From: a bacterium
GTDB lineage: Bacteria; UBP4; UBA4092; JAOAEQ01
Direction of reading: 5' to 3'
DNA length: 64,000 nt
Assembly (NCBI GenBank): GCA_026416715.1
Contig: JAOAEQ010000017.1
Location: 4,870 to 68,869, forward strand
The notes beneath the pieces were generated by a model. The model was not told the DNA's origin. It searched no databases and worked only from the letters and a program-made list of their open reading frames with translations. Shown one piece after another: positions 9,922-63,472 of the stretch (position 1 is its first letter; each line of letters begins with the position of its first letter). The position numbers and the translations under genes are program-made.

Positions 9922-9975
9922 TCAAAAACGGAAGAACTCACGATACTACCTGGTTTTTTGTTCTTCCGTTCTCAC
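9922..9975. terminator. Bidirectional hairpin / heptamer-register palindrome
   Basis: AACGGAAGAAC (9927-9937) pairs perfectly with GTTCTTCCGTT (9960-9970) around a 22-base loop holding a T6 run. It separates two convergent genes and could terminate both. Its words (GAAGAAC, GTTCTTC) match other dispersed palindromes of this window. Confidence 0.6.
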
Positions 9976-9998
9976 GATTCTTGGTATTACCCGATAAT

Positions 9999-11081
9999 CT
10001 AGCCTAATTCTTGTTGCGCTTTCAATTCTGCAATTCGTTTCTTTTCCGCTCTCGCTAAGAAGCCGACAGCGATAAAAATGAAAATTAACGATATCCAGTC
10101 TTCTTTTTTAGGATATTTACCGCCGAAAATAACTGCAAATAACAACGTCGCGGTTGTCCCCGCAACCAATGAGGTTAGCCGATTTGATAGTCCAGCAAAA
10201 GTTGCGGTTCGTCCTTTAAACATAAACAAAAATACTGAAAAGAACGCTAGAATTCCATAGGGTAAACCGGAAGCGATTTCCCAAGGCCAATATTTTGTTG
10301 GATTGCTAAGTGCTTGCTGATAGAGAACAACTGCTTTCGCATCGGAACGTACCAGATAGAATAAAATTAATCCTACAATGAACATCGTAGATGAAGCAGC
10401 AATTTGTTCAATGGCAAAAAATCCTTTATTATCTTGCGGGACACCTTTCCCGCGAGTATTCCGAAAGTAATTCATAATATAGAGACGGATGAAATATGCC
10501 GTTAAATAGCTGCCTAAAATTGCCATCGCTGCCGGCGAATGTAAAAAATCAAATCCACCAGCTTTTTTACCAAAAATAATATGGACACTTACCGCAATTA
10601 TCGCAAAAATCACCGCTACTTCTTCCTCCCAATAAACCTTCTTATGGAGGATACCCTGTTTAATTTGAATCGCATCAATAATTCGACTGATCACAATTAT
10701 GCTTCCGCGCATAATTACCATCGCAACCATAACCGAAATCGGCAACAGATACATCAAGGTAGTCGTGGGAATAACCACTGCGGTGCAGATTCCGGAAGGT
10801 ATGATGTAATAAATCTCTACTGGAATTTTCCATTTCCCGAATGGAACTAACTGATTCGATTTGAGCCGATACCAGCGGTAGAGAAATACTATCGCTAAAC
10901 AAATTAAACTACCACCTATCGTGTTATATACCAAGTATTCCATTTCGCCGACCCCAAGCAATCCTTTATCTGCTGGTCCGGTGAAATATTTTACGGCGAC
11001 TCCCGTTATAACATACAAAAAGAAATACCACGCACAAAATGTTATTAGTTGCCGAGTACTACCTTCTTGCACTTTACCCAT
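9999..11081 (-). CDS. Polytopic membrane protein, DMT-like transporter
   Basis: A 360-aa integral membrane protein with about ten hydrophobic helices, a KKRIAELKAQQE cytoplasmic tail and no signal peptide. The arrangement and length fit the drug/metabolite-transporter superfamily, with repeated four- to five-helix halves (for example LPISVMVAMVIMRGSIIVISRI and FAGLSNRLTSLVAGTTATLLFA), but no specific family motif is seen, so the substrate is unknown. The second of two overlapping ATGs is the start; GAGG lies about 9 bases upstream. It follows the P-loop kinase gene after 25 bp, so the two are probably one operon. Confidence 0.55.
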   Translation of the reverse strand: MGKVQEGSTRQLITFCAWYFFLYVITGVAVKYFTGPADKGLLGVGEMEYLVYNTIGGSLICLAIVFLYRWYRLKSNQLVPFGKWKIPVEIYYIIPSGICTAVVIPTTTLMYLLPISVMVAMVIMRGSIIVISRIIDAIQIKQGILHKKVYWEEEVAVIFAIIAVSVHIIFGKKAGGFDFLHSPAAMAILGSYLTAYFIRLYIMNYFRNTRGKGVPQDNKGFFAIEQIAASSTMFIVGLILFYLVRSDAKAVVLYQQALSNPTKYWPWEIASGLPYGILAFFSVFLFMFKGRTATFAGLSNRLTSLVAGTTATLLFAVIFGGKYPKKEDWISLIFIFIAVGFLARAEKKRIAELKAQQELG

Positions 11082-11106
11082 ACATTTAATCCTCTTTTGA
11101 AAAAAG

Positions 11107-11820
11107 TTATTTTTTCATTAGGTTCCACAACCGACCGAAAACATCTTCTAACGCCGGTCCAAGTTTTGCAGGGTCATCGGTTTTTTCCGGTTCGTTATCG
11201 AAAACGACATACGGAACTTTATATCCTTTAATTTCGATGAAACCTTCATTACCAGGTGCAATCTTATCCCAATCGTTAATTTTATAGTAATATTCCATCT
11301 TATCATCTGGTAACGAATGGTATAAAACGCTATCCTCTAGTCCTTTCCGGGCACGGCGCCGATTCTTGCGGCAGGATTCTTCATAAGATACTTTAATATA
11401 ACAAATTCCCGCATGTTGTAAGATCGCTTCGGATAAATAGGAAAATGCTTCTGCAAATGCGTTTTCACCGCCGCGCGCGAATTCAATGATGGCGGTATTC
11501 TCTTCGAGGAAATTCGGATTATCGCGCAGTTTTTTAGCAAACGCATTGTTGATTTTTTCAATACAAACGTTCCATAAAAATTCATCTTTAAAATAATAAT
11601 CCGACCGCGTATGTAATCGTTCTTTACCATATTTTTCGAGAATATCATCTTCTTCAAACCAATCCCAGATATAAGGAAAATCATCGATTTCAACAAATGC
11701 CCCGATATGAAACCGTTGTTTGCGTTCTTCGATCGGTGTCTTTTTCAGATAATCAATCACTTCACTTTTGCCAGCCGCTGGACGACCGATTAAGATTATG
11801 ACTGGAAACGTATTTGCCAT
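11107..11820 (-). CDS. P-loop nucleoside/nucleotide-kinase-like ATPase
   Basis: A 237-aa soluble P-loop protein. IILIGRPAAGKSEVIDYL at the N terminus is the Walker A; the following EIDDFPYIWDWF and the KNRRRARKG lid-like segment suggest a nucleoside- or shikimate-kinase-like fold rather than a motor ATPase. The in-frame start at 11871 is rejected because ATG 11820 has an excellent GGAGGAGG ribosome-binding site. It precedes the membrane transporter gene by 25 bp and they likely act together, perhaps phosphorylating an imported compound (inference). The substrate is not identifiable. Confidence 0.65.
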   Translation of the reverse strand: MANTFPVIILIGRPAAGKSEVIDYLKKTPIEERKQRFHIGAFVEIDDFPYIWDWFEEDDILEKYGKERLHTRSDYYFKDEFLWNVCIEKINNAFAKKLRDNPNFLEENTAIIEFARGGENAFAEAFSYLSEAILQHAGICYIKVSYEESCRKNRRRARKGLEDSVLYHSLPDDKMEYYYKINDWDKIAPGNEGFIEIKGYKVPYVVFDNEPEKTDDPAKLGPALEDVFGRLWNLMKK

Positions 11821-11991
11821 ATTTCCTCCTCCGTTAACCGCAGAAGATCGTATATAATTTAATGGTAGCATTATAGCGAACTTTGAAAAGTAGTGTCAAT
11901 GATTTTCCGCTTGCTGAATCTATAAAATTCCAGTAGAATAATGTTGCAATTAGATACAATTAATGCTGTATAAAATGAAAGGTGGGATTTT

Positions 11992-12630
11992 ATGAAGGTT
12001 AGACTTATGCTGCTATGTTGGTTGAGTATACTTTTTAGCATAGGAATTTGTTTTGCTGAACCAACTAATTATACCGCAATGATGGTTATGGATACCATGC
12101 AATCGAATTATGCACGCGATGGCAAGAAAATCCGCACCGAAATGAATATAGGTGAAATGGGCAAAATGATTCATATCGTTCGCGCTGATGTAAAAAAGAA
12201 TATTATGCTTAACCCTGCGACAAAGATGTATTTTGAAAATGTCTGGGAAGAAAATAAGATGCAATCTGACCCGGCAATGTTCGAGAGTGATCCCAACTAT
12301 AAAATAGATAAGGTGAAGGTTGGTACAGAAACAATCGATAAACATCCGTGCGTCAAATATACCGTAACGATTACTAATAAAAAAACTGGCGAAAAACATA
12401 CCGGCACGATTTGGGAAGCAACCGATTTACAGAATCTGGTAATTAAATATGAAATGATACAGGATAATAAAAAGATGACGATAGAATGGAAAAATATTAA
12501 GTTGAATGCGGCAACCACGGATATGTTTGAAGTTCCTGCTGGATACAAAAAAGCGAACAGTATGATGGAATTGATGGGTATGGGAGCTATGGGTGGAATG
12601 CCAGGACGGTCACGGGGGAAAATGCCATAG
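11992..12630 (+). CDS. Secreted DUF4412-like / LolA-fold-like protein
   Basis: A 212-aa exported protein. MKVRLMLLCWLSILFSIGICFA is a Sec signal peptide with an AFA-like cleavage context (CFA-EP). The mature part reads as an antiparallel sheet: YTAMMVMDTM, KKIRTEMNIGEM, IMLNPATKMYFE, CVKYTVTITNKKTGEKHTG and FEVPAGYKK, which fits DUF4412 and other outer-membrane-lipoprotein-carrier-like periplasmic proteins. The tail is Met/Gly-rich. The ribosome-binding site aaaggtggg is strong. It stands alone and ends in a clear terminator, so function is not indicated by neighbours. Confidence 0.65.
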   Translation: MKVRLMLLCWLSILFSIGICFAEPTNYTAMMVMDTMQSNYARDGKKIRTEMNIGEMGKMIHIVRADVKKNIMLNPATKMYFENVWEENKMQSDPAMFESDPNYKIDKVKVGTETIDKHPCVKYTVTITNKKTGEKHTGTIWEATDLQNLVIKYEMIQDNKKMTIEWKNIKLNAATTDMFEVPAGYKKANSMMELMGMGAMGGMPGRSRGKMP

Positions 12631-12685
12631 TAAGGATACTTACTATCTTGCGGAGAATAGGGATATCGAGTAAAATAATATTGAG

Positions 12686-12721
12686 ATGCCGTTCCAATAT
12701 TGCTATTGGAACGGCATTTTA
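12686..12721 (+). terminator. Intrinsic terminator of the secreted protein gene
   Basis: A perfect 14-bp stem (12686-12699 with 12704-12717), TTGC loop, then TTTTATT. It lies 56 bp past the stop codon and 13 bp before the tRNA-Thr gene. Confidence 0.85.
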
Positions 12722-12733
12722 TTCGCAATATCA

Positions 12734-12809
12734 GCCGGCGTAACTCAGATGGTAGAGTAGCTGATTTGTAATCAGCCTGTCGGGGGTTCGAGTCCCTCCG
12801 CCGGCTCCA
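12734..12809 (+). tRNA. tRNA-Thr (anticodon UGU)
   Basis: 76 nt including encoded CCA. Acceptor GCCGGCG/CGCCGGC, D-arm with CAGATGGTAGAG, anticodon loop TTTGTAA giving UGU, T-arm GGGGTTCGAGTCCC. It is followed 50 bp later by tRNA-Tyr on the same strand. Confidence 0.95.
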
Positions 12810-12859
12810 TCATTTTAAATTTTTGTTGTTTCGTGGTACAATAATACGCTAAATATCGA

Positions 12860-12944
12860 GGACAGGTTCCCGAGCGGTCAAAGGGAGCAGACTGTAAATC
12901 TGCCGGCGATGCCTTCGGAGGTTCGAATCCTCCCCTGTCCACCA
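12860..12944 (+). tRNA. tRNA-Tyr (anticodon GUA)
   Basis: Class II tRNA with acceptor GGACAGG/CCTGTCC, discriminator A and encoded CCA, anticodon loop CTGTAAA giving GUA, long variable arm GCCGGCGATGCCTTCGG, T-arm GAGGTTCGAATCCTC. Confidence 0.95.
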
Positions 12945-13125
12945 TTCTTCATAGCTATCGTATAGGGAATATATAGTAACAGTGCTTAATTTTGATTTAA
13001 AGAAATATCATCGTATAATCAACCTCTACCATAGTTTTATCTTAAGTTAATTGGTTAATCATCTATCTATTTAAGCGAGTATTTATAGCATAAAAATATT
13101 TGCGAAGATTAGCATAATTCTATAG

Positions 13126-13171
13126 TATAATGCTGAATAGTCAATGAGAAGACATTGGCATTCAGCATTAT
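13126..13171 (+). promoter_or_regulatory. alaS -10 element overlapping a long palindrome in the leader
   Basis: TATAAT (13126-13131) leads into a nearly perfect inverted repeat: 13127-13145 pairs with 13153-13171 (ATAATGCTGAAT against ATTCAGCATTAT, with a few internal mismatches) around AGAAGA. It sits 26 bp before the alaS start. The position fits an operator or an RNA hairpin at the 5' end of the transcript. A matching -35 is not evident. Confidence 0.55.
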
Positions 13172-13196
13172 GTGTTTATAGCGCCAGGAGCGTTTT

Positions 13197-15833
13197 ATGC
13201 TTACGAAAGAAATCCGGTTACGTTTCTTAGAGTTTTTTCAACGGTATGGACATACGTTAGTACCCAGCGATGGGTTAATTCCAAAGCATGACCCAACGTT
13301 ATTATTTACCAGTGCTGGAATGGTGCAGTTTAAAGACCATTTTCTGCAGAAGATTAACCTCGAATATACCCGTGCTGTTTCGTGTCAAAAATGTTTACGA
13401 ACCTCTGATATAGAAAATGTTGGTCGTACCGCTCGCCATCACACCTTTTTTGAAATGCTCGGTAACTTTTCATTTGGCGATTATTTTAAACAGGAAGCAA
13501 TTCGCTGGGCATGGCAGTTTGTTACCGAAGAATTGCATCTGCCTAAAGAAAAATTATGGATTTCAATTTATACCGATGACGATGAATCGTTTAATTTCTG
13601 GCATACAGAAGCTGGTGTAGCGGCAAATCGGATTGTCCGATTAGGGAAGGAAAGCAACTTCTGGCAGATGGGTGAAACAGGTCCTTGTGGACCCTGTTCT
13701 GAGATTCTGATTGACCAAGGAGAAAATGTAGGGTGTCGGAAACCGAATTGTTCTCCAGCATGTGATTGCGATCGGTTCCTTGAGTTCTGGAATTTGGTTT
13801 TCACTCAATTTGACCGTCAAGCGGATGGAACTTTACTTCCCTTACCCAAGAAAAATATTGATACTGGCATGGGATTAGAACGAACCGCAGCAATTGTTCA
13901 AGGAGTACGGAGCAACTTCGAGATAGATTTATTTCGACCGCTAATTCATTACATTCATGAGTTTACGGATATCCGCTATGGAAGTGATGCGAAATCCGAT
14001 ATATCGTTTCGGGTTATCGCTGACCATAGTCGTGCGTTAACCTTTGCTATCAGTGAAGGTATTCTCCCTTCGAACGAAGGACGCGGGTATGTTATCCGTC
14101 GGATTCTTCGTCGCGCCTATCGCCATGGAAAATTATTGGGAATAGAAGAACCGTTCTTATATCGAGTAGCCGGCGAAGTGGTTGAGTTGATGCAGGATAC
14201 GTATCCGGACTTGCGAACGCGCTGGCAACATACTTCAAACATTATTCTTACGGAAGAGAAACGGTTCGAAACCACACTCAACCAAGGATTAGCGCTACTG
14301 GATGAATGGATCAATAAATTAAAACAAACTGGGGATACCGTTATTCCTGGAGAAATTGCGTTTAAACTCTACGATACGTATGGGTTCCCATTAGATTTAA
14401 CTATGGATATTGCTGCAGAAAATCAACTTACCGTTGACCAATCCGGATTTAACGCTGAATTATCTCTGCAGCAGGAACGAGCTCGAGCTGCATGGGTTGG
14501 TTCCGGTGAACAGAAAGTATCTGATGTCTATCATCAGATACAGAAACAATTCGGGGATACGGAATTTCTTGGGTATAAAAAAGAAAAGCTTCATGCAAAA
14601 CTACTCGCGATAATTAAAAACGGACAAATTGTTGAATCGGCTGAACCCCACGAGACGGTTGAACTTGTGTTTGACCGAACCCCGTTTTATGCAGAATCCG
14701 GCGGACAGGTTGGAGACACCGGATGTATCACTAAAGGAAAAGGGACTAAAGCTGAAGTTTCTACTACGGTCAAAAAAGTTGGGAATTCAATTATCCATCA
14801 GGTGAACATTCAAAAAGGAAAAGTTAACGTTGGAGAAAACTATCTTTTAACCGTTGATAGTGAAAAACGGTATAACACCGCACGAAACCATACGGCTACG
14901 CATCTCCTGCATACTGCATTACGTCGCGTGCTCGGTGACCATGTGCATCAATCTGGCTCGTTAGTCGCTGCAGACCGACTCCGATTCGATTTTACTCACT
15001 ATCAAGCGCTAACCGAAGAAGAACTTAATCGCGTTGAAGAAATTGTTAATCAACAAATTCAAAACAATCTCCCAGTTAAAGCACTGATTTCGTCGGTTGA
15101 GGAAGCGAACCGGCTTGGTGCAATCGCTTTATTTGGTGAGAAATATGGGAAATTGGTTCGCGTGATTAAAGTTGCGGATTTTTCGATTGAACTGTGCGGT
15201 GGAATCCATGTAGCGCGGACTGGTGATATTGGTTTATTTGTTATTGTAAGCAGTGGTGCTGTTGCCGCCGGAGTTCGCCGAATTGAGGCGGTTACCGGAA
15301 AAACCGCATTTCACTATCTGAAAAAAATGCAACGGATACTATTTGATACCGCAGAATTAGTTAAATCTGAGCCAGATAAACTATATTCACGAATTGAATC
15401 GCTAGTCGCTGAAACTAAACAACTACATAAAGAAATTGAAAAACTTAAAACGCAGAAGACCTCAATTAATTTAGAATCAATCCTGCAATCAGCTGTTGAA
15501 ACTAATGGTATCAAAGTTATTGCTCAGAAAATAAAAGATGGTGACCAGAAAACATTATTGAGTATAACTGACCAGTTAAAAGCCAGACTGCATAATTCGG
15601 TAGCTGTTCTCGGGTCGAGTTTAGCGGATAAAGTTTACTTAATTGCGCTGGTTACTAAAGATTTAACCAATCGGGTTCATGCGGGAAAATTAATCCAGCG
15701 AATTGCAGCGATAGTTGATGGTGGCGGCGGTGGTCGGCCTGACCTTGCTCAGGCAGGCGGGAAAAATCCAGCGAAATTAGATGAGGCGTTATCCCAGGTT
15801 CCTGAATTCGTTAAACAGATGATGCAGAGATAA
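13197..15833 (+). CDS. alaS: Alanyl-tRNA synthetase
   Basis: An 878-aa class II alanyl-tRNA synthetase of normal length. Order of domains: catalytic core with motif 1 to 3 landmarks such as TSAGMVQFKDHF, RHHTFFEMLGNFSFGDYF and the DTGMGLERTAAIVQG segment; tRNA-recognition domain; editing domain with HTATHLLH and CGGIHVARTG zinc ligands; coiled coil around residues 710-755; and C-Ala domain with DGGGGGRPDLAQAGG. It charges tRNA-Ala and hydrolyses Ser/Gly-tRNA-Ala. A palindrome lies in the leader and may serve autoregulation. The weak caggag ribosome-binding site is 11 bases from the ATG. Confidence 0.98.
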   Translation: MLTKEIRLRFLEFFQRYGHTLVPSDGLIPKHDPTLLFTSAGMVQFKDHFLQKINLEYTRAVSCQKCLRTSDIENVGRTARHHTFFEMLGNFSFGDYFKQEAIRWAWQFVTEELHLPKEKLWISIYTDDDESFNFWHTEAGVAANRIVRLGKESNFWQMGETGPCGPCSEILIDQGENVGCRKPNCSPACDCDRFLEFWNLVFTQFDRQADGTLLPLPKKNIDTGMGLERTAAIVQGVRSNFEIDLFRPLIHYIHEFTDIRYGSDAKSDISFRVIADHSRALTFAISEGILPSNEGRGYVIRRILRRAYRHGKLLGIEEPFLYRVAGEVVELMQDTYPDLRTRWQHTSNIILTEEKRFETTLNQGLALLDEWINKLKQTGDTVIPGEIAFKLYDTYGFPLDLTMDIAAENQLTVDQSGFNAELSLQQERARAAWVGSGEQKVSDVYHQIQKQFGDTEFLGYKKEKLHAKLLAIIKNGQIVESAEPHETVELVFDRTPFYAESGGQVGDTGCITKGKGTKAEVSTTVKKVGNSIIHQVNIQKGKVNVGENYLLTVDSEKRYNTARNHTATHLLHTALRRVLGDHVHQSGSLVAADRLRFDFTHYQALTEEELNRVEEIVNQQIQNNLPVKALISSVEEANRLGAIALFGEKYGKLVRVIKVADFSIELCGGIHVARTGDIGLFVIVSSGAVAAGVRRIEAVTGKTAFHYLKKMQRILFDTAELVKSEPDKLYSRIESLVAETKQLHKEIEKLKTQKTSINLESILQSAVETNGIKVIAQKIKDGDQKTLLSITDQLKARLHNSVAVLGSSLADKVYLIALVTKDLTNRVHAGKLIQRIAAIVDGGGGGRPDLAQAGGKNPAKLDEALSQVPEFVKQMMQR

Positions 15834-17404: not shown

Positions 17405-17409
17405 CGGGA

Positions 17410-17465
17410 TTCAATATTCATTGGCAAAGTTCAAATACCAAATTCGTAAAGTGTAAAGGAACAGG
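17410..17465. repeat. Heptamer-register repeat stretch
   Basis: Eight consecutive 7-base words in one register, most with CAAA or TAAA at the same place (GCAAAGT, TCAAATA, CCAAATT, CGTAAAG, TGTAAAG). It lies between the convergent mltG and sugar isomerase genes, with no classical terminator. Confidence 0.5.
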
Positions 17466-18249: not shown

Positions 18250-18300
18250 AACTCTACTCCTTCTTGATATAATATTTATTACATAATTATACCGTATGAC

Positions 18301-18357
18301 TTAAGGACGTAAAAACTTAGGAACGAAAGAACTGTTGGTTATTCCGTTTTTTCGTTA
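18301..18357. repeat. Heptamer-register palindromic element
   Basis: Left arm words TTAAGGA, CGTAAAA, ACTTAGG, AACGAAA run in a 7-base register from 18301; right arm words TTCCGTT, TTTTCGT start at 18342. The arms are roughly complementary. It lies in the divergent region before the glycosyltransferase gene. Confidence 0.5.
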
Positions 18358-18366
18358 TTAATAAAA

Positions 18367-19050: not shown

Positions 19051-19083
19051 CCTCTTAACCAAGACACAAAGAGACCAAAAGTT
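19049..19083. repeat. Heptamer-register repeat stretch
   Basis: Words AACCTCT, TAACCAA, GACACAA, AGAGACC, AAAAGTT in a 7-base register directly after the stop codon. It resembles the arms of the element at 20714-20767. Confidence 0.4.
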
Positions 19084-19153
19084 GAGTTGATAAAATTTGG
19101 TTTCGTTTTCATTTGACATCAGATGCTTTTTTTAGCGATAATGGTTACTCGTT

Positions 19154-20713: not shown

Positions 20714-20767
20714 ACCTACCGCAGCACAAAGACACCAAAATATATTACCGTTTTGATGTCTTAATGT
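20714..20767. repeat. Heptamer-register palindromic element
   Basis: GACACCAAAA (20731-20740) is an imperfect inverted copy of TTTTGATGTC (20751-20760). Words GCAGCAC, AAAGACA, CCAAAAT keep a 7-base register. It lies between the GHL10 gene and the intrinsic terminator. Confidence 0.5.
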
Positions 20768-20811
20768 ACCTATTTATCTATCTCTTTTCGGTTGGGTTAT
20801 CCCGTAGAGGA

Positions 20812-20843
20812 ACAAGAGCGGCTTTAACCCGCTCTTGTTTTTA
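20812..20843 (+). terminator. Intrinsic terminator after the GHL10 gene
   Basis: ACAAGAGCGG pairs with CCGCTCTTGT across a short loop, followed by a T run. It sits between two convergent genes, so it probably ends the plus-strand transcript. Confidence 0.85.
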
Positions 20844-20893
20844 TCCGTATCTCCAAGGGTTTTAAGATACTGGGGTAATGTATTAAACCTCAA

Positions 20894-21911: not shown

Positions 21912-21916
21912 AGTAT

Positions 21917-22234: not shown

Positions 22235-22248
22235 GAAATCCGAAATCC
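22235..22248. repeat. Tandem heptamer
   Basis: GAAATCC occurs twice in direct succession just upstream of the Rieske gene start. It may be a fragment of the dispersed heptamer-register elements. Confidence 0.4.
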
Positions 22249-22258
22249 AACGGTTCCA

Positions 22259-23884
22259 TTATAAATAACTCATTGCAGAAATGACTAACCCAATCGCTGC
22301 AAGAACCCAGATATATGGAATGAGCTTTTTCGTTATCGCGATAACATCTACTCCGAGATAACTGGCAATCCAGACATTATGGGTATTGGTTGGGTCGCAA
22401 ACTCCTTGAATTGCACCGACGGATATAAATAATCCCATAATCGCTGGCGGAGGTAACGTTCCCGTCGCTAGCATTATCCCCGCAAGTCCAGAACCCATCC
22501 CCCAGACATTTAACGGACCGCGATATAACGCTAACGGTGCGAGTAGAGTGAATACTACAAGATATCCGAGTCTACTACTGGGAATAATGCTCGATAACAG
22601 CGGTTGTAAATATCCTTTAACGGTCTCCAAGGTAACCGATTTTAATAGCATCCCGATGCCAATCATTAACAATACTGCGGGAAGAACACTTTCTGCGCCT
22701 TCAAACAGCGCTTGCGTAAACGATTTGATAGCTCCTTTCTCCCAAGTAGTGATTAACCCCCAGATTAATCCGGCAATAAACGCAGCAAAAAATGGTACCT
22801 TGAATAATAAAACTAAAATGATCGGTACGAGCGGAGTCAGGAGCGCTAGAATACTGATTTTCTTTTTCGTCGGTTCCTCCGTTTGAATTTCTTCTGCCCA
22901 ATAATGCACCATATTTTTTTTGCGTAATCCGATAAGAATAAAAATTAATCCGATAAGAATGTATAATCCGGCAATTTTGATTGCAAAAGCACGGGTGATA
23001 TCGGTTGGAACCCCGAGCGTATTTTCATAGAACACCCAGCTACCAGGGAATAATGAGCCGCCAGCACAAACTCCAATTAACATTACCCCTGCAGCGATTA
23101 ACGGCGGCGTCCCGAGCGAAAGCATAATCGGGAAGATAATACTGCCGACCATAATAATCGCACCTAATCCCCCGAGCGTGATAAACAATCCGGCAGTAAC
23201 CAGCATCATAACAATAGCGACAACGACCGGTTTATCTCCCGCAAGCTCTGCTGCGATTCGGATGATCGCTTCTGCGATTCCTTTTTTCCGAACGAAAAGC
23301 GCGAGCATCCCGCCGAATAATGCTAACGTATACGCTTCATGCAAACGCAATGACCCTTCGCCGATAACTACTTTCAATACATCATTATTCGCTGCTAAAT
23401 CGCGTAGGTAACTGAACGATTTACTCAATCCACTCGTCGTCAATTTCGTCCAGATTTGCGAGCCGTATGAAGTCAAAATGATTACTTCCCGTTCGGTAAG
23501 TTCAGCCGATTTACCATATTGGATCCCAAGATAATAGGTTTGGCCATCAAATAGCCGCCGAGGAATAGTCCTACTATTCCCTAGGATAACTGAATACGAC
23601 CTATTCGTTACTTTAACCGACTGCGTTTCCGACCATAACGGTGTTCCGCCGGTTGATTCACTATAGAGACTAAACGTTATGTTTTGCGATTCTGCTGGTG
23701 CTAGCTGAACTGTCTCCGGAACTATACCTTGATAGCTACTGCCAAGAAAAAGTAACGGAATACTGCCGATAATCGCAAATAGAATCGCCATAAGCGGTAA
23801 CGCTAACAACGCAGAAATTTTATTCAGATACATTAATACCATCATGATTAAAAAGATTACTATTAATACTATTCCGATAACCAT
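22259..23884 (-). CDS. Ion-transporter-superfamily permease with inserted beta-rich domain
   Basis: A 541-aa membrane protein with roughly a dozen hydrophobic helices and repeated features of the CitM/GntP/DctM-like ion-transporter superfamily, for example GVCAGGSLFPGSWVF and the symmetric FISVGAIQGVCDPTNTHN. Between the second and third helices (about residues 55-170) lies a soluble, beta-rich insert whose GGTPLWSETQSVKVTNRS and LFDGQTYYLGIQYG patterns match a domain often repeated in secreted and tail-fibre-like proteins. The insert is expected outside the membrane. Substrate is probably an organic acid anion (inference). It heads the redox operon by 30 bp. Confidence 0.75.
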   Translation of the reverse strand: MVIGIVLIVIFLIMMVLMYLNKISALLALPLMAILFAIIGSIPLLFLGSSYQGIVPETVQLAPAESQNITFSLYSESTGGTPLWSETQSVKVTNRSYSVILGNSRTIPRRLFDGQTYYLGIQYGKSAELTEREVIILTSYGSQIWTKLTTSGLSKSFSYLRDLAANNDVLKVVIGEGSLRLHEAYTLALFGGMLALFVRKKGIAEAIIRIAAELAGDKPVVVAIVMMLVTAGLFITLGGLGAIIMVGSIIFPIMLSLGTPPLIAAGVMLIGVCAGGSLFPGSWVFYENTLGVPTDITRAFAIKIAGLYILIGLIFILIGLRKKNMVHYWAEEIQTEEPTKKKISILALLTPLVPIILVLLFKVPFFAAFIAGLIWGLITTWEKGAIKSFTQALFEGAESVLPAVLLMIGIGMLLKSVTLETVKGYLQPLLSSIIPSSRLGYLVVFTLLAPLALYRGPLNVWGMGSGLAGIMLATGTLPPPAIMGLFISVGAIQGVCDPTNTHNVWIASYLGVDVIAITKKLIPYIWVLAAIGLVISAMSYL

Positions 23885-23975
23885 GGGTATCCTCCTGTTA
23901 AATAGTTAAATAGTTAAGTTTAATAGATTCAATTCACCATAGACATAAAAATCACTACTATTTACCTCCATTATA

Positions 23976-26381: not shown

Positions 26382-27002
26382 TCATTGTCTTCTCTGTCGA
26401 ATAAGATAGATTAACGGTATGCTAATAAAAGTGACCGCCATTTTAACCATATATTGTCCAGTAATCAATGGAACAACCGGAAGGACACCGATAAAAGCGA
26501 TGCTAATAAATAATACACTATCGATCAAGGTTGATACAGCATTACTTATCAGCACTCGCGCCCATTTATGTTTTCCGACGTTTTGCCGCCACCAAGCGAA
26601 TACTTCCGTATCAATCAGCGAACTGATAAGATAAGCAACTAAACTTGCGAAAACGATTCGCGGCGTTGACCCCAACACACTGGAAAACGCAACGTTATGA
26701 GGATAAAATTTCGCTGGCGGTAGAAGGATAACCAGCTGAATATATGCTGCTAAGATGATATTCGCAACGAAAGCGGCATATACTACCTGCTGCGCACCTT
26801 TTTTCCCAAGTTTCTCATTTATCAAATCTATCAGAGTGAAGGTTAACGCATAAATGAATACCGCTGCTGGCACAACGATATTCCCCATAGCAATCGGTTT
26901 AGATGCAGTGACATTGGCTATCAACTCACAGGCGATATAGAGTCCAATTAATAGAATCGGCATAACTAAAAATACCTCGGAAGAACTTAAAAACGAAAGC
27001 AC
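26382..27002 (-). CDS. yhhQ: Queuosine precursor transporter (VUT family)
   Basis: A 206-aa integral membrane protein with six or so helices. The VUT/QPTR signature is seen in LTFTLIDLINEKLGKKGAQQVVYAAF, LGSTPRIVFASLVAYLISSLIDTEVFAWWRQ and the Asn-containing SNAVSTLIDSVLFISIAFIG. The family imports preQ0/preQ1 or queuine for tRNA wobble modification. The start is GTG 27002, but no ribosome-binding site is seen and the first ten codons lie in the arm of a palindromic repeat, so translation may begin downstream, for example at the Met before PILLIGLY. Confidence 0.9.
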   Translation of the reverse strand: MLSFLSSSEVFLVMPILLIGLYIACELIANVTASKPIAMGNIVVPAAVFIYALTFTLIDLINEKLGKKGAQQVVYAAFVANIILAAYIQLVILLPPAKFYPHNVAFSSVLGSTPRIVFASLVAYLISSLIDTEVFAWWRQNVGKHKWARVLISNAVSTLIDSVLFISIAFIGVLPVVPLITGQYMVKMAVTFISIPLIYLIRQRRQ

Positions 27003-27054
27003 GGAAAAATTTTTCTGATGTTGTTTAGTTCTTCCGTTCCTTTCTTCTTCCGAG
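26976..27054. repeat. Palindromic element spanning the start of the VUT gene
   Basis: CTCGGAAGAA (26976-26985) and TTCTTCCGAG (27045-27054) are perfect inverted copies. Left words CTCGGAA, GAACTTA, AAAACGA and right words CTTCCGT, TCCTTTC, TTCTTCC hold a 7-base register. The left arm encodes the first residues (LSSSEV) of the VUT protein. Confidence 0.6.
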
Positions 27055-28927: not shown

Positions 28928-28944
28928 ATCCTAGCTACAGGGAT

Positions 28945-29024
28945 AAAAAAATAACCGCTAAGTACGCTACGATAATTCCAAAAATTCACTCAAGAGAACT
29001 TTTTTGCGTTTTTGCGGTTAGCCT
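28945..29024. repeat. Heptamer-register palindromic element between mnmG and ROK genes
   Basis: Left words TAACCGC, TAAGTAC, GCTACGA (28952-28972) are roughly complementary to right words TTGCGTT, TTTGCGG, TTAGCCT (29004-29024). Both arms hold a 7-base register. It overlaps the last two codons and stop of the ROK gene. Confidence 0.55.
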
Positions 29025-30007: not shown

Positions 30008-30037
30008 ATTGATCTAACAGCTTGTAAAATAAGTCAT

Positions 30038-30139
30038 GGAGTTAGGTAAAGAGTAAGTAGTGAGTTATGGTGTTGGTCTTAAGTGTTACTCTTATACCTA
30101 CTTTACTTCACTTAGATACCTAACTCCTTGACCATAACC
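30038..30139. repeat. Heptamer-register palindromic element
   Basis: GGAGTTAGGTA (30038-30048) and TACCTAACTCC (30117-30127) are perfect inverted copies. Left words GGAGTTA, GGTAAAG, AGTAAGT and right words CTACTTT, ACTTCAC, CCTAACT hold 7-base registers. The two arms nearly meet at TTAAG. Confidence 0.6.
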
Positions 30140-38727: not shown

Positions 38728-39639
38728 ATGGATAAAAAAAAGAAAACGACTACATTATCCCAGCATTTATATCGGCCAGAACCAAACTTTTTAGGGTTAC
38801 CAAAAGAATATACCCGGTTCGAATCAGCATCGGTTGTTATTCTCCCTATACCGTATGAAGCAACAACTTCGTATCGTAGCGGGACTAAATTTGGACCGCA
38901 AGCAATACTCGATGCTTCACGATATGTTGAAACTTATGACGACGAACTGGATTGCGAAGTATATCACGTCGGAATTCATACCTTACCAGAACTAGACTCG
39001 AATCTAGATACAGTTGAAAAAAATATTAACCGAATTGAACAAGCAGCTCGTGAACTTATCCAGCAGAACAAATTTTTGGTTAGTCTCGGCGGTGAACATT
39101 CGATTACGTTAGGATTAGTTCGCGCATTCAAGCGGAAATATCCGAAGTTAACTGTTGTGCAACTTGATGCGCATGCGGATCTCCGCCCTCAGTTTGAAGG
39201 AACGAAATTTAGCCACGCTTGTGTAATGCGACAGATCCGGAATTTAGGAATACCAACCGTCGGGCTTGGAATTCGAAGTTATAGTCAAGAAGAAGCAGTA
39301 TATATCAAAAAGCAACGGAATCGATGTATTTATTCTGCTCGTGACCTGAAACAGAACCCAGAATTATTTTCAGAGATTATCGCAGCTTTATCCAGTCCGA
39401 TTTATGTTACGATAGATGTAGATGTATTTGACCCGGCGTATGTCCCTGGCACGGGTACCCCTGAACCTGATGGGTTAGATTGGGAAACCATAACCGGATT
39501 TTTACGGCAATTAACGAATTCAGTTGACATCATCGGGTTTGATGTAGTAGAATTATCTCCTATAGGAGGGCAGGTAACTTCAGAATTTTTAGTCGCAAAA
39601 CTTATCTATAAGTTTATCAGTTATATTTTTGCAAAATAA
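38728..39639 (+). CDS. speB: Agmatinase / ureohydrolase
   Basis: A 303-aa ureohydrolase that hydrolyses agmatine to putrescine and urea, or a related guanidino compound. The binuclear Mn site is complete: SLGGEHSITLG, VVQLDAHADLRPQFEGTKFSHACVMRQI, and YVTIDVDVFDPAYVPGTGTPEPDGL. The N-terminal FGPQAILDASRYVETYDDELDCE segment is typical of agmatinases. The ATG lies 53 bp after tRNA-Cys with a weak ribosome-binding region. A hairpin 10 bp after the stop separates it from the DksA-like gene. No speA (arginine decarboxylase) gene is present here. Confidence 0.93.
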   Translation: MDKKKKTTTLSQHLYRPEPNFLGLPKEYTRFESASVVILPIPYEATTSYRSGTKFGPQAILDASRYVETYDDELDCEVYHVGIHTLPELDSNLDTVEKNINRIEQAARELIQQNKFLVSLGGEHSITLGLVRAFKRKYPKLTVVQLDAHADLRPQFEGTKFSHACVMRQIRNLGIPTVGLGIRSYSQEEAVYIKKQRNRCIYSARDLKQNPELFSEIIAALSSPIYVTIDVDVFDPAYVPGTGTPEPDGLDWETITGFLRQLTNSVDIIGFDVVELSPIGGQVTSEFLVAKLIYKFISYIFAK

Positions 39640-39648
39640 AACTACCCC

Positions 39649-39676
39649 AGTAGTTTCTTAAAAAAGAGAAACTACT
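39649..39676 (+). terminator. Hairpin after the agmatinase gene
   Basis: AGTAGTTTCT pairs with AGAAACTACT over an A-rich loop, followed by gaatttatttt. A weak intrinsic terminator or attenuator before the DksA-like gene. Confidence 0.55.
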
Positions 39677-39711
39677 GAATTTATTTTATAAGTAAGGAGT
39701 GGTAATAGGAA

Positions 39712-40107: not shown

Positions 40108-40130
40108 ATTCTAACCTGAATAAAATTTAG

Positions 40131-40170
40131 AAGGCAGTAAACCAGAGTCTATATGGTTTACTGCCTTTGT
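40131..40170. terminator. Intrinsic terminator between convergent genes
   Basis: Stem AAGGCAGTAAACCA (40131-40144) against TGGTTTACTGCCTT (40154-40167), then TGTATTTT. A strong terminator for the DksA-like gene and perhaps the opposing one. Confidence 0.85.
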
Positions 40171-40184
40171 ATTTTGGTTATTTG

Positions 40185-47069: not shown

Positions 47070-47080
47070 TGTTACAGCGA

Positions 47081-47195
47081 GCAAATTTCTCTTTTTCTGT
47101 ATGGAATTTGAAATTTGCATTTCACTTCGAATAGCGAAATGTGCATTTGCGTTGTTTTTAATAATTCGGATTTTGGATTGTAAAATTTCCCCCTC
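47081..47195. repeat. Degenerate heptamer-register stretch beside rnpB
   Basis: Words GAATTTG, AAATTTG, CATTTCA and later CGGATTT, TGGATTG hold a 7-base register. The inverted-repeat content is weaker than in the other elements. It lies between the YfhO gene and the RNase P terminator. Confidence 0.4.
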
Positions 47196-47216
47196 GGTTC
47201 GATTCGAACAGAGGGG
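47190..47216 (-). terminator. Terminator of the RNase P RNA gene
   Basis: CCCCTC (47190-47195) pairs with GAGGGG (47211-47216), with an inner TTCGA/TCGAA dyad. On the minus strand it is followed by GAAATTTTA. Confidence 0.6.
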
Positions 47217-47576: not shown

Positions 47577-47652
47577 CAAAGTACAAAGTACCAAGAGTTT
47601 GTATTCACATATAGATATTTAGCACTTAGCACTTGGTACTTTATACTTTTAT
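47574..47652. repeat. Heptamer-register palindrome at the 5' side of rnpB
   Basis: AAAGTACCAAG (47585-47595) and CTTGGTACTTT (47632-47642) are perfect inverted copies. Left words AAACAAA, GTACAAA, GTACCAA and right words TTTAGCA, CTTAGCA, CTTGGTA, CTTTATA, CTTTTAT hold clean 7-base registers. It occupies the place where the rnpB promoter should be. Confidence 0.65.
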
Positions 47653-53884: not shown

Positions 53885-53912
53885 AGAATTTTGGATTTTA
53901 AAGTTATAGTTT
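53885..53912. repeat. Heptamer-register stretch upstream of the BadF gene
   Basis: Words AGAATTT, TGGATTT, TAAAGTT, ATAGTTT keep a 7-base register in the 87-bp gap before the pilT-type gene end. Only one arm is visible. Confidence 0.35.
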
Positions 53913-53947
53913 TTTTCTCGCTATTTCGTCCGCCCTTTCAGACGTAG

Positions 53948-56122: not shown

Positions 56123-56143
56123 TCCTAATTTCGCTGGGTAACA

Positions 56144-57742: not shown

Positions 57743-57891
57743 AACGAATATTCCTCCAGTACGTTCAATACGGTTATCATAACTATATTTTATAGCATTG
57801 AATGCGAATTATGTCAAAATGAATTTGCGTATTTCCTTTACTATACTGATAAGACAATGCTACAATAATTTTATACGAGCATTGAAAAACT

Positions 57892-58797: not shown

Positions 58798-58807
58798 ATA
58801 TAGAGAA

Positions 58808-58970
58808 ATCCAAATGTCCCATCGTAAATGTCAAATACAGCATACATCAAAAATGCAAATCATAATCCCGCTACGATTTTGGCGTTTGCCCGTTCCATCG
58901 TTCCGGTTAAAGCTTTTAGAACTTTCATTCGGAATTTGGATTTTGGTGTTTGGCCTTTGTTTTCTAACCG
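58808..58970. repeat. Heptamer-register palindrome overlapping the NMT1-like gene start
   Basis: The left arm (58808-58863) is a run of 7-base words such as ATCCAAA, TCGTAAA, TGTCAAA, TACATCA. The right arm (58929-58970) holds TCGGAAT, TTGGATT, TTGGTGT, TTGGCCT. The arms are roughly complementary. The ATG at 58814 lies inside the left arm. Confidence 0.65.
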
Positions 58971-59980: not shown

Positions 59981-60066
59981 TAAAATATTACGTTCATTAA
60001 ATCAATAATTCCGTACTTCTTATATAATTTTATGTAAAAACCATTATATCTACAGGCGGGGTGTCC

Positions 60067-60091
60067 ACGAACGAGATATTATCTCGTTCGT
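60067..60091. terminator. Perfect hairpin between convergent genes
   Basis: ACGAACGAGAT (60067-60077) and ATCTCGTTCGT (60081-60091) form an 11-bp stem with a 3-base loop. It lies between two convergent genes and probably limits read-through. Its GCGGGGT flank resembles the flank of the hairpin at 33272 on the opposite strand. Confidence 0.6.
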
Positions 60092-60130
60092 AGCTGCTCC
60101 GGAATCAGTCAACCGTCCGACCGGTTTTAG

Positions 60131-62347
60131 CTATCCTAAATCAGGCGATTTCGGTCGAGTTATCTTGCGGCGGGTAAAATAAAACGTCAATCCTATTCCG
60201 ATGAAACTGGTTATGGTAAGAATCCAGCCAAGGGTTTCCGCCCAAGTGTTTCGGTAGGTCAATTCAACCTGATAATTTTCTCCTTTCGGCAGGGTTAATC
60301 GCATTAACCCTATTTCATCAGCAAGTATAGTAATTTGGAATTTGGAATTTGACGTTTGATATTTGGATAACGTTGCTTGCCAGCAGGGATAGTATGCAAC
60401 TTTAACTAAAACCGGAACGTCCGTTTCTGCAGATTGAACGGATAAGGTTATCCGGTCTCCTGAAAAAGATGTAACTTGAATATCTGCGCGCGTAGTATCG
60501 TATTCAATCCAGCTCGAAGTATAAGAAGGTATATCATAGATATTAAATTCATCGATTTCTCGAACCAATCGGAAGGTTGAACTACGGTTGAAAAACGCAA
60601 TAACCTTATCTTCATTGCGGTTAGTAACAATTGTCGTGATATTCATTTTTCGGCAGAACGCGAATAACCGCGATTCTTCCATCAGCTCCCAAGGAACGCC
60701 CAGCAGCGAGCGATTATCCAGCGAATCCGCTTCTTGCCGGATAACGATTGGCGCTTTCTTGCCGAAAAAGAGATAACTCGCTACAGTATAAAATGGCGTA
60801 TTCAATCCGCCGATAATCTGCCGGCCAGTATATATTGGAGTTAAACTCATACTATGCGTCTGGAATTGCGGGGGTAATGTTTTATATTTCAACGAACTTG
60901 CGGTGAAGAGAATTCTTCCTGCATCAATTGCAGAGGTATAATAATTCTGACTTCTGCCTTCTGGGTTCTTGCCTTTATCTTCTGTCAGGTGTTTCCAAAG
61001 TTCATCCAGTTGATATTCTTTAACCACCGTCGGTAGGAATCCAATTCGGTTATATCCTTGCGAGAAATCGTAAAATGTCCAGAGTATCGTTCCTGAAAAC
61101 CAAAAAATACCGAGGAGAATAATCAGGAGAAATAACGTGATTAGAAATGGATACACAATTCTCATTCCAAATTGAGCAGGCAGCAGTTTAACTGTAAAAT
61201 TTGCAATGCTAATTCTGCATTTTGCAATGAGTTCATAGATTCCAATCCCGCTAGTGAGGATAACCGCAAAATGGAATCCGTCTTTCAATCGAACAACATC
61301 GAGAAAATAGAAATGGAATATCGGGATTAGAATGAGCTGAACGAAAGTCAGAAATCCAAGCATTAAGAGCGGAGTAACGACCAACCCGGCTAGGATAGCT
61401 TTCTGACGAACCGGCTGATTCGGATTCAAGAGCGAAACCGCACTGACGAGATATAAGAGCAGGAAAAAGAGATTGGTTTTCCCATCCGCTAATGAGGAGA
61501 GTAACGCTAGTAATGCTGCGAATTGATTCCCGGTTTCCTGCCCTGACCAGATTTGAAGTGAAGAAACATAATTATGCCGGATAAATAGCGGCACCCACCA
61601 GAACGCACTTAACCCTAACCCTAGTAGAATCGCAAGTCCGAAAACGTTCAGTGATTTCCGCAATGAACATTGTTTCGTTCGTTTGAATCCATAGAGCATT
61701 GCGATTAATCCGAATATCGGCAAAAAGATATGGTATGGATGACACACCAACGCAAGAGCAAATAATCCTGCTAACCCAGCGATATTGCGTTTTCTCGGTT
61801 TCGCAACCAGATTCTTGATACCGAACCAGAGAATTAACGGATAGAATCCGAGCGCAATCCGTGAATTCGTTAATCCGACCAGAACACCATAAAATACGCC
61901 GCTGGCGTTCCCGAGCTCGAGCAGGATGAGGAGATACAATGCGGTGAAGAATCCGGCGATATACCCGAATCCAGATTTTCGAAGGAAATAATAACTCGTT
62001 ATTACTGGGAAAAATAAGGCGAATAACAGAATGAAATTGTATATCTGCCCGATGGGAACAAGGGTTAAACAGAGATAATAGAACAAGATACCCAAAAAAA
62101 TCGACCCCGGCGGATAAAATTGCAGTTCCGGAATCCCAGCGAACCAATATGGATTCCAATCAACCAGCCGATGATGAACCGGAACGGATTGAGTTACCGC
62201 ATAATACAGCGAAAAATAATGGAAACTATTATCATCATAAATAAACGGCTGGGAATTAAACAGAAATCCGAAGGTATATAGGCCTAAGATTACTAAAAGG
62301 AAAATAGGGAAAAAACAGAACCAAAAATGCTTACGCTTCTTTTGCAT
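60131..62347 (-). CDS. PTPS-related polytopic membrane protein
   Basis: A 738-aa membrane protein with about a dozen helices and an outer C-terminal domain. SQPFIYDDNSFHYFSLYYAVTQ and VDWNPYWFAGIPELQFYPPGS near the N terminus are typical of the PTPS_related (6-pyruvoyl-tetrahydropterin synthase-related) membrane family, a GT-C-like group. The C terminus has VKVAYYPCWQATL and PKGENYQVELTYRNT, matching YfhO's YYPGWRAYV and PPGNYQVEFRYF. Between them an extra segment (KYQTSNSKFQI) is encoded by a heptamer repeat at 60335-60369. Likely an envelope glycosylation enzyme; donor unknown. Confidence 0.78.
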   Translation of the reverse strand: MQKKRKHFWFCFFPIFLLVILGLYTFGFLFNSQPFIYDDNSFHYFSLYYAVTQSVPVHHRLVDWNPYWFAGIPELQFYPPGSIFLGILFYYLCLTLVPIGQIYNFILLFALFFPVITSYYFLRKSGFGYIAGFFTALYLLILLELGNASGVFYGVLVGLTNSRIALGFYPLILWFGIKNLVAKPRKRNIAGLAGLFALALVCHPYHIFLPIFGLIAMLYGFKRTKQCSLRKSLNVFGLAILLGLGLSAFWWVPLFIRHNYVSSLQIWSGQETGNQFAALLALLSSLADGKTNLFFLLLYLVSAVSLLNPNQPVRQKAILAGLVVTPLLMLGFLTFVQLILIPIFHFYFLDVVRLKDGFHFAVILTSGIGIYELIAKCRISIANFTVKLLPAQFGMRIVYPFLITLFLLIILLGIFWFSGTILWTFYDFSQGYNRIGFLPTVVKEYQLDELWKHLTEDKGKNPEGRSQNYYTSAIDAGRILFTASSLKYKTLPPQFQTHSMSLTPIYTGRQIIGGLNTPFYTVASYLFFGKKAPIVIRQEADSLDNRSLLGVPWELMEESRLFAFCRKMNITTIVTNRNEDKVIAFFNRSSTFRLVREIDEFNIYDIPSYTSSWIEYDTTRADIQVTSFSGDRITLSVQSAETDVPVLVKVAYYPCWQATLSKYQTSNSKFQITILADEIGLMRLTLPKGENYQVELTYRNTWAETLGWILTITSFIGIGLTFYFTRRKITRPKSPDLG
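60335..60369 (+). repeat. Intragenic heptamer repeat
   Basis: Five consecutive words TTGGAAT, TTGGAAT, TTGACGT, TTGATAT, TTGGATA in an exact 7-base register. Read on the minus strand they encode the loop segment of the PTPS-related protein. Confidence 0.75.
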
Positions 62348-62400
62348 GGTGACTCTATCTTGCGCCCTTGACTAAACTTTGCGAACCTTATGGTTAGTGG

Positions 62401-63360
62401 TTAAGTCGCTAAGATTTGTCCGAGATTATAGAGTTCTAGCTGGATTGGTTTCGTCTGCTGCCAAGAGTATGGTAGTGGATATACCGAGAACCGATTCGAT
62501 TCTATTCCAACCATTTTATCCGTTTCACCGGATTCGATGAGTTCAACGGCTCGCGCACCGAGCCGACTCGCAAGTATCCGGTCGAACGCGACCGGTATTC
62601 CGCCTCGTTGCAGATGACCGATAACACAATATCGAGTGTCATATCCGACTTTATCTTTAATCTGCTGGGCAAGTTCAGCGGCATCCCCTGCGCCTTCAGC
62701 AACGACGATAATACTACTGGATTTCCCGCGCCGTTTCCCCGCTTCGAGTTTCTCACATAACGAATCTACCGTATATGGAATTTCCGGAACTAAAATAAAT
62801 TCTGCACCGCCAGCTAACCCGGTCTGCAGCGCAATGTATCCATGTTCGCGACCCATAACTTCAACGACAAATAACCGGTCATACGAGGTGGCGGTATCCC
62901 GGATTTTATCAATAGCTTCAAGCGCAGTGGTTACCGCAGTCCAAAATCCAATGGTATAATCCGTTCCAGCAAGGTCGTTATCTATCGTTGACGGAACATT
63001 GATAACTTGGACACCCCATCCAGCTAATTCATGCGCGCCATGTGATGTCCCATCGCCGCCGATAGTTATAATCGCATCAAGGTTATGTCTTTTTATCTGA
63101 TTAACTGCCAGCTGTTGTCCATCTTTAGTTCGAAACGCTTGACTTCGTGCGCTTTTTAGAATCGTTCCGCCCCGGTTCAGAATCCCGCTTACTGATGATA
63201 AATTCATCGGCATAAACTCACCTTGAATCAACCCTTCAAACCCGCGCATAATCCCGATTATTTCGAATCCATGATATATCCCGGTTCGAACGATCGCGCG
63301 AATCGCCGCATTCATCCCCGGCGCATCACCACCACTGGTTAAAACACCTATCCGTTTCAT
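62401..63360 (-). CDS. pfkA: 6-phosphofructokinase
   Basis: A 319-aa phosphofructokinase, the committed step of glycolysis. GVLTSGGDAPGMNAAIRAIVR (ATP/substrate loop), IGGDGTSHGAHELA with Gly at the position equivalent to E. coli 104 (ATP type), PSTIDNDLAGTDYTIGFWTAV with the catalytic Asp and VVEVMGREHGYIA are present. Position 124 is Ser where ATP enzymes have Gly and pyrophosphate enzymes Lys, and GFWTA replaces the usual GFDTA. ATP dependence is likely but not certain. No clear ribosome-binding site is visible; a palindromic element fills the upstream region. Confidence 0.93.
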   Translation of the reverse strand: MKRIGVLTSGGDAPGMNAAIRAIVRTGIYHGFEIIGIMRGFEGLIQGEFMPMNLSSVSGILNRGGTILKSARSQAFRTKDGQQLAVNQIKRHNLDAIITIGGDGTSHGAHELAGWGVQVINVPSTIDNDLAGTDYTIGFWTAVTTALEAIDKIRDTATSYDRLFVVEVMGREHGYIALQTGLAGGAEFILVPEIPYTVDSLCEKLEAGKRRGKSSSIIVVAEGAGDAAELAQQIKDKVGYDTRYCVIGHLQRGGIPVAFDRILASRLGARAVELIESGETDKMVGIESNRFSVYPLPYSWQQTKPIQLELYNLGQILAT

Positions 63361-63370
63361 AATACATTTT

Positions 63371-63472
63371 AACTAAAAAACTTAAGAACTAAGAAGCAGA
63401 AGAATATAATCTCAGTACCCTAGTTTGTTCTTTTGTTTTTTCTTCCTTTCGTTCTTTCGTTTTTTCTTTTTA
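63371..63472. repeat. Heptamer-register palindrome upstream of pfkA
   Basis: Left words AACTAAA, AAACTTA, AGAACTA, AGAAGCA, GAAGAAT (63371-63405) and right words TTTGTTC, TTTTGTT, TTTTCTT, CCTTTCG, TTCTTTC, GTTTTTT (63424-63465) hold 7-base registers and are roughly complementary. Confidence 0.6.

Follow-up and report, generated by a model that had tools for sequence, protein, structure and literature searches.

Several kinds of small inserted or repeated DNA in bacteria come close to the elements considered here. In the intervening sequences (IVSs) of 23S rRNA, an extended stem-loop substitutes for a small loop, and RNase III cuts the insertion out of the RNA; IVSs with an S23/IVP gene are patchily distributed, and in them this single small four-helix-bundle gene lies between ends that are complementary to each other (PMC4990558). 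Short tandemly repeated repetitive sequences (STRRs) and other bacterial heptanucleotide repeats are intergenic tandem words of 7 nt, with named heptamers in Xanthomonas (GGGAATC), Nostoc (GGGGA(T/C)T) and Beggiatoaceae (TAACTGA) (MacGregor 2015), and the Xanthomonas heptads often form inverted pairs, of which one genome has 70 (PMC4692102). REPINs, hairpins of repetitive extragenic palindromic (REP) sequence that go with a REP-associated tyrosine transposase (RAYT), are dispersed, with their partner gene present in the same genome (PMC3116915), and miniature inverted-repeat transposable elements (MITEs) are short, gene-less, mostly inverted at their ends and kin to gene-bearing elements. Here we describe dispersed elements of drifting 7- and 8-nt words, many of them palindrome-like, in a 64,000-nt stretch of bacterial DNA (the window; positions 4870-68869 of contig C17 of host genome G000, which comprises 2.96 Mb in 64 contigs).

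We propose, with a probability of roughly 0.78, that the window palindromes are gene-less, MITE-like relatives of IVS-like small mobile elements, a kind of element that is widespread and apparently unnamed. A complete element would consist of an arm of degenerate 7-10-nt words, one small open reading frame (ORF) from either the four-helix-bundle/23S-IVP family (PF05635) or the GxxExxY family (PF13366), and the inverted arm; the words would drift and vary among elements, with the two arms of any one element matching. The observed basis is this architecture, the association with two gene families, a rule that relates register to gene family, presence and absence at defined sites, and nested and polymorphic gene-less copies.

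Host DNA was scanned initially over 613 kb (the window plus 28 other stretches) and later over 981 kb of the 2.96 Mb, and comparison DNA comprised 238 kb of G001, the nearest sampled relative (same class), together with stretches from six other genomes. Register was scored in 14-nt segments with at least 11 matches at a given lag, using dinucleotide shuffles and length-scaled coding DNA as controls. Intergenic host DNA (613 kb) holds 100 such segments at lag 7, compared with 10.6 ± 6.5 in shuffles and 26 in coding DNA, and the period-7 autocorrelation by which an earlier note on the window had suggested checking its reading is therefore present, as is the tandem intergenic heptanucleotide feature of STRRs. 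However, lag 8 is stronger, with 159 segments compared with 10.5 ± 4.4 shuffled and 7 coding, and the exact 7-base register that the note had seen by eye holds for part of the elements only. The G001 sample has no excess at lag 7, a small excess at lag 8 and some at lags 9 and 18.

Hairpins, scored with gaps and loops of up to 60 nt permitted, are also in excess in the same 613 kb: 53 intergenic regions score at least 16, roughly tenfold more than the 5.7 expected from shuffles, and 19 score at least 20 (0.3 expected). This excess is MITE-like, as is the sharing of words between gene-less and gene-bearing copies. Intrinsic terminators or mRNA stem-loops, selected in place as host regulatory structures, would likewise be mostly intergenic, and hairpins such as those at 40122-40175 and 39636-39689 resemble ordinary terminators. 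Nevertheless, of the 52 strong hairpins whose context is known, 13 are flanked by divergent genes (25%, versus 12% of all gaps) and only 7 by convergent ones, which does not fit terminators as a general account. The register, the word families and the insertion into an RNase P RNA described below are also foreign to terminators, and we regard regulatory structures as a highly improbable explanation for the elements.

Words recur within the host genome. Matches with up to three mismatches were counted in the intergenic part of the 981 kb, with shuffles and the backwards-read word as controls: AAGAACGAAAGAACG (family A) occurs 47 times (4.3 shuffled, 9 backwards), CACCAAGACACCAAG (family B) 24 times (1.1 and 5), TTTGGAATTTGGAATTT 22 times (2.3 and 5), TGACATTTGACATTTG 13 times (1.2 and 2), GATTACACAGATTACAC 11 times (0 and 0) and ATATCGAATATCGAA 34 times (10.6 and 9). 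The words recur through the genome, so there are several families, each with its own word; the earlier claim of no shared consensus thus stands between families and fails within them. The G001 sample contains zero matches to these six words, save two to ATATCGAATATCGAA. Together with the hairpins, the families also bear out the expectation that such elements occur elsewhere in the same genome. Gene-less copies in the host outnumber gene-bearing ones with the same words. The family-B pattern CACHAAGRCACHAAGRCAC (CAC-N-AAG-R) is found in 17 of 192 sampled genomes, at up to 44 per genome, and its backwards control gives one match in total over the 192; a near-perfect copy at locus L069 reads TTTTAACCACAAAGGCACAAAGACACAAAG, loop, CTCTGTGTCTTTGTGCCTTTGTGGTTAAAA. 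The exact family-A 20-mer, a probe too strict for use across genomes, matches in 3 of the 192.

Dispersed hairpins would also be expected if a Y1 (RAYT/IS200-type) transposase moved elements of the ordinary REPIN kind, and Y1_Tnp genes are frequent among the genomes sampled; the host itself contains conserved-sequence hairpin families (D and F). However, G000, which is rated 100% complete, has zero matches to PF01797, leaving a Y1 transposase unsupported as the mover, and the arms are drifting tandem words rather than conserved REP sequences and enclose other partner genes. Such an origin is very unlikely for the word-built elements.

Beside these elements, two kinds of repeat were encountered in the host genome. 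One is a separate conserved-sequence hairpin family, GGAGT(T)GA(A/G)TGAGAATTGAA-CGG-TTCAATTC..., which is REP-like and lacks a word register (L029:11739-11785, L017:9334-9412, L009:4478-4522, L034:5010-5056 and others). The other comprises clustered repeats on CCCAGCCAT..ATGGCTGGGCTA with inner GC-rich palindromes, resembling REP sequences or bacterial interspersed mosaic elements (L019:3950-4135, 13342-13517 and 14894-15009), which occur though the genome gave no Y1 transposase match.

Degenerate words of this type go with GxxExxY and four-helix-bundle genes. In many lineages, inverted word arms surround one small gene of family PF05635 or PF13366, and word matches often flank these genes on both sides as inverted repeats. 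For example, family-B words at 286082 (forward) and 286512 (reverse) of contig C2 of genome G130 surround a gene at 286118-286468. In the host, family-A words at 90007 (forward) and 90475 (reverse) of contig C4 surround the sole PF05635 gene of the genome (90131-90445), and these words are those of window elements 9922, 18301, 26976 and 63371. A search of 17 genomes with the family-B word and 27 without it found PF13366 in 13 of the former and 4 of the latter, and PF05635 in 15 and 8, respectively.

To quantify the arms, flank complementarity was scored with a threshold of 18, which is reached by 15 of 27 PF13366 loci and 18 of 27 PF05635 loci, compared with 13 of 341 short control genes (3.8%; p = 2e-12 and 4e-16). 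Similar results were obtained in a replication on 40 regions fetched afterwards, 38 of them long enough to score, with 14 of 19 PF13366 and 15 of 19 PF05635 loci at or above 18, compared with 8% and 3.5% of mismatched flank pairs. Arms are also present at PF05635 loci of word-negative genomes (L133, L134, L137, L139, L141, L146 and L159), and the choice of genomes by word therefore fails to explain them.

The length of the word tracks the gene family. Among 46 loci of each family, lag 7 scores best in the flanks of 34 for PF05635 and 2 for PF13366, whereas lags of 8-10 are best at 9 and 31, respectively (p = 5e-11 overall, and 8e-7 and 4e-5 in two halves, in a test that counts each locus as independent, though some genomes contribute several). 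Words are mostly of 7 nt with four-helix-bundle genes and of 8-10 nt with GxxExxY genes. The words themselves vary by locus, including GAACAAA, AGAAGAC, GTTCCTG, GGATGAA and AGGGATT for PF05635 and CACAGAGAA, CGCAAAGG, GATTTACAA, CGCGGATTT and CACAAAGG for PF13366, and protein likeness tracks word likeness weakly (Spearman 0.26 and 0.13 for the two gene families). At 22 of 25 and 30 of 35 loci, the upstream arm is rich in purines, a bias that may aid the initiation of translation.

Several observations concern the cargo more broadly. Short ORFs without a Pfam match lie between inverted family-B words at L094:17403-17792 and L091:13025-13477, and because some family-B-flanked short control genes also lack a Pfam match, further cargo genes may exist. 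Genome G009 has an unusual arrangement in which partial PF05635 matches recur genome-wide as opposite-strand pairs separated by some hundreds of bases (C2:122174-122711, C3:162853-163181, C7:104028-104554 and C12:274816-275267). Four-helix-bundle genes also lie between cas10 and cmr3 on a Picosynechococcus plasmid (L212) and between cas6 and cas4 on a Pseudanabaena plasmid (L214).

Presence and absence at defined sites suggest that the arm-gene-arm unit is mobile. On plasmids of Nostoc, Aulosira, Trichormus, Scytonema and Pseudanabaena, four-helix-bundle genes have heptad flanks such as TCAGGAG, AGTAGGG and AAAAGCT, and elements of Nostoc (C052) and Aulosira laxa, which occupy different sites, share 81% identity over 416 nt from one arm to the other. 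At one plasmid locus, L222-L226 have no element (AGGTTCTAGGTTATGCAAATC in L226), and L213, L221 and L227 carry one; L221 reads AGGTTCTA-aatcaggag...ggattct-AGTTATGCAAATC; L226 carries a different element, with AAAAGGG words, in the gap next to the empty site. Gene-less copies are polymorphic as well: L221 and L222 have TCAGGAG palindromes upstream, which L213, L225 and L226 lack, and in L227 a gene-less copy interrupts the four-helix-bundle gene, a nested insertion. For the other gene family, Sphingomonas parapaucimobilis has a GxxExxY element with arms CACGCGAAGGCGCGAGGACGCGAAGA between fabD and fabG, and in S. paeninsulae the next gene follows fabD directly, without the element.

These comparisons bear on the possibility that the elements are simple-sequence expansions and nothing mobile, with slippage making 7-8-nt tandems in place and template switching adding the inverted arm. 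Heptanucleotide repeats are over-represented in many bacteria, for which slippage has been proposed (PMC4679880 citing Mrazek), and the left arms of two related elements (L229 and L230) differ by exactly 14 nt, or two heptads. However, local expansion leaves unaccounted for words that recur within a genome, a pattern shared by 17 of 192 genomes with nearly no backwards matches, and arms that enclose two particular gene families as a unit at different sites. The empty and filled sites largely refute slippage as the sole cause, an explanation that we hold to be unlikely; its role in shaping the arms is probably secondary.

An insertion into a structured RNA gene was found in the window itself. 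The RNase P RNA gene (RF00010; 47211-47677, minus strand; Rfam, 308 bits) hosts a heptad palindrome of AAAGTAC words at 47578-47649 (minus strand; hairpin p = 0.002, lag-7 p = 0.002), which lies in the terminal loop of P3 according to the Rfam alignment. This loop region measures 73 nt, compared with 4 in the model, and the strand of the element, site 47574 of the earlier note, folds far better than shuffles (z = -4.47). The RNase P RNA of G001 has a 9-bp P3 with a small 4-nt loop and no insertion, and two other genomes are likewise short. The insertion thus shares the anatomy of an rRNA IVS, in which a small loop becomes an extended stem-loop, but lacks a gene. Gene-less copies may settle where a self-folding insert is tolerated, of which the P3 loop would be an example; insertions into transcripts would be tolerated because the arms fold back in the RNA.

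Insertions into structured RNA genes would also be expected of mobility at the RNA level, through a reverse transcriptase that the four-helix-bundle protein would assist in the manner of Avd, and PF05635 proteins do resemble Avd, the accessory protein of diversity-generating retroelements (PMC10053308). The reverse transcriptase of such retroelements is not associated with the words, however: RVT_1 is found in 6 of 17 word-positive and 7 of 27 word-negative genomes (p = 0.52), and G130, G017 and G041 are rich in elements with zero RVT_1 matches. A reverse transcriptase is accordingly rejected as a required partner, and this route is very unlikely.

Rather than these routes, an element whose own protein recognises the hairpin or the repeated words would fit the IVS-like reading. 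GxxExxY, placed by Pfam in the PD-(D/E)XK nuclease superfamily (PDDEXK_3), would act as a nuclease, and the four-helix-bundle protein as a nucleic-acid-binding ring. A sequence search of the Protein Data Bank returned 2gsc and 2rld for the four-helix-bundle protein and zero matches for GxxExxY. The former, 2gsc, is XCC0516 of Xanthomonas campestris, a solved relative of the four-helix-bundle protein that has been described as a pentameric ring (PMC4990558). Gene-less copies would be moved in trans, and arms would be homogenised through slippage and template switching inside the hairpin. It appears about as likely as not that movement is catalysed or guided by the element's own protein.

Several results weigh against this interpretation. 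No clear arms are seen at about a quarter to 45% of PF05635 and PF13366 loci, the gene calls are heuristic, and the same genomes supply several loci. The host has one gene of each type but several word families, so that most gene-less families have no cognate gene, and its sole GxxExxY gene (C15), flanked by eye by CCGCAGAG-type words, has flanks that score only 12, equal to background complementarity. Three junctions compared gave a possible TTCTA, ATG and 0-1 nt, and hence no constant target-site duplication; mobility is read from site comparisons and the enzyme roles are predicted. In the window, 11 of the 16 sites listed by the earlier note are individually non-significant as palindromes, and its statement that most are palindromes has site-level support at 5.

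Individual sites were tested by local dinucleotide shuffles within the gap of each, with p values uncorrected for the several lags and sites. Thirteen of the 16 listed sites gain some support, and three (22235-22260, 53885-53920 and 58808-58860) show neither a significant hairpin nor a significant register. Hairpins are supported at p ≤ 0.03 at 9922, 26976, 30038, 47574 and 63371. Register 7 is supported at p < 0.03 at 17410, 47081, 47574 and 60335, and register 8, found at more sites, at p < 0.05 at 9922, 18301, 20714, 23976, 26976, 28945 and 63371; 30038 (lag 7, 0.052) and 19049 (lag 8, 0.057) are borderline.

Family A accounts for four register-8 elements: palindromes AACGGAAGAAC..GTTCTTCCGTT at 9920-9995 (hairpin p = 0.030, lag-8 p = 0.022), CTCGGAAGAACTTAAAAACGAAAG..CTTTCTTCTTCCGAG at 26976-27054 (inverted repeat I1; 0.005 and 0.042) and AACTTAAGAACTAAGAAG..GTTCTTTCGTTTTTTC at 63375-63470 (0.015 and 0.010), and the element ACTTAAGGACG..GGAACGAAAGAACTG at 18299-18366 (lag-8 p = 0.012, hairpin p = 0.17), where Tandem Repeats Finder (TRF) reports a period-16 array. 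Family B-like elements are AAGACACAAAGAGACCAAAA at 19060-19135 (register 8 borderline, lag-8 p = 0.057) and the palindrome ACAAAGACACCAAAA..TTTTGATGTCTT at 20730-20800 (register 8; lag-8 p = 0.032, hairpin p = 0.11). Hairpins of the form GAACAAGAGCGGGTT..AACCCGCTCTTGTTC, nearly the same in sequence and probably either terminators or members of a further small repeat family, occur at 20780-20860 of the window, L018:19042-19092 and L030:1349-1391.

Other register-8 features are an octad array GTTAAATA (family I) at 23890-23925 (lag-8 p = 0.002; hairpin not significant; TRF period 8 at 23897-23917), a palindrome-like element AACCGCTAAGTACGC..GCGTTTTTGCGGTTA at 28935-29018 (lag-8 p = 0.005, hairpin p = 0.22) and an octad array of TAGGAATT/AATTGAGA at 63572-63609 (TRF period 8) that the earlier list lacked. 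Heptad features are a stretch of GGCAAAGTTCAAATACCAAATTCG at 17405-17450, not significant as a palindrome (lag-7 p = 0.015, hairpin p = 0.67), the palindrome GTCATGGAGTTAGGTAAAGAGTAAG..CTTCACTTAGATACCTAACTCCTTGAC at 30033-30132 (score 16; hairpin p = 0.010, lag-7 p = 0.052, borderline) and a TTTGGAAT-kind stretch at 47075-47200 downstream of a 1046-aa ORF (lag-7 p = 0.027, hairpin p = 0.41). At 60332-60365, three AATTTGG heptads plus drifted units (lag-7 p = 0.002; TRF period 7) lie, apparently in frame, inside the ORF at 60131-62347 (minus strand, 738 aa, no Pfam match), possibly as an in-frame coding insertion or by chance. The elements are mostly intergenic, as the note had it, with this site and the RNase P RNA element as exceptions.

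The note had also held that a shared architecture and register set these elements apart from ordinary REP or MITE families, and this becomes stronger once related loci are included, even though it had overlooked the second register (8), the families of recurring words, the element inside the RNase P RNA gene and, above all, the PF05635 and PF13366 genes inside the arms. Unlike MITEs, the elements have no DDE transposase, no fixed terminal sequence and, at the three junctions, no constant target-site duplication, and the proteins of their gene-bearing relatives, PF05635 or PF13366, are not known as transposases. The S23/IVP gene of IVSs is found in gene-bearing relatives in the host and many other genomes, and the window copies are gene-less. 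In contrast to IVSs, however, the elements lie mostly outside rRNA, they end in arrays of 7-8-nt words that drift, gene-less copies are abundant, and a second gene family, GxxExxY, has the same architecture in another register. Insertion into a 16S or 23S rRNA helix-loop was not found in the window, where elements are intergenic or in RNase P RNA, and the gene-bearing relatives lie mostly between protein genes. STRRs are described as one-word simple repeats rather than as ends of a gene-bearing mobile element (in the sources as available), whereas the Nostoc-group plasmid relatives enclose a four-helix-bundle gene with heptad flanks and the window copies are gene-less. Phage records gave no match to a Xanthomonas heptad, in a search whose repeat filter would mask such a word. 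In the mostly non-subscription literature, so far as its text was accessible, heptad arms are not tied to an enclosed four-helix-bundle or GxxExxY gene, the register rule is undescribed and GxxExxY appears merely as a neighbour gene; searches by word strings returned only unrelated animal-biology texts.

We tentatively suggest, at somewhat less than even odds, that these elements constitute a categorically new class of mobile element, one whose ends are free to drift in sequence while the family of its single encoded protein fixes the length of the repeat. No agreed function has been attached to heptanucleotide repeats, STRRs, IVSs or GxxExxY proteins, each of them noted before, and they are here tied into one element type. 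If true, the class would unite cyanobacterial STRRs, the bacterial heptanucleotide excess, rRNA IVSs and GxxExxY genes, and its protein would read register and hairpin instead of sequence, an unusual recognition principle. Many four-helix-bundle and GxxExxY genes annotated as 'hypothetical' would then gain an identity, as would many intergenic palindromes of metagenome-derived genomes that have lacked an explanation.

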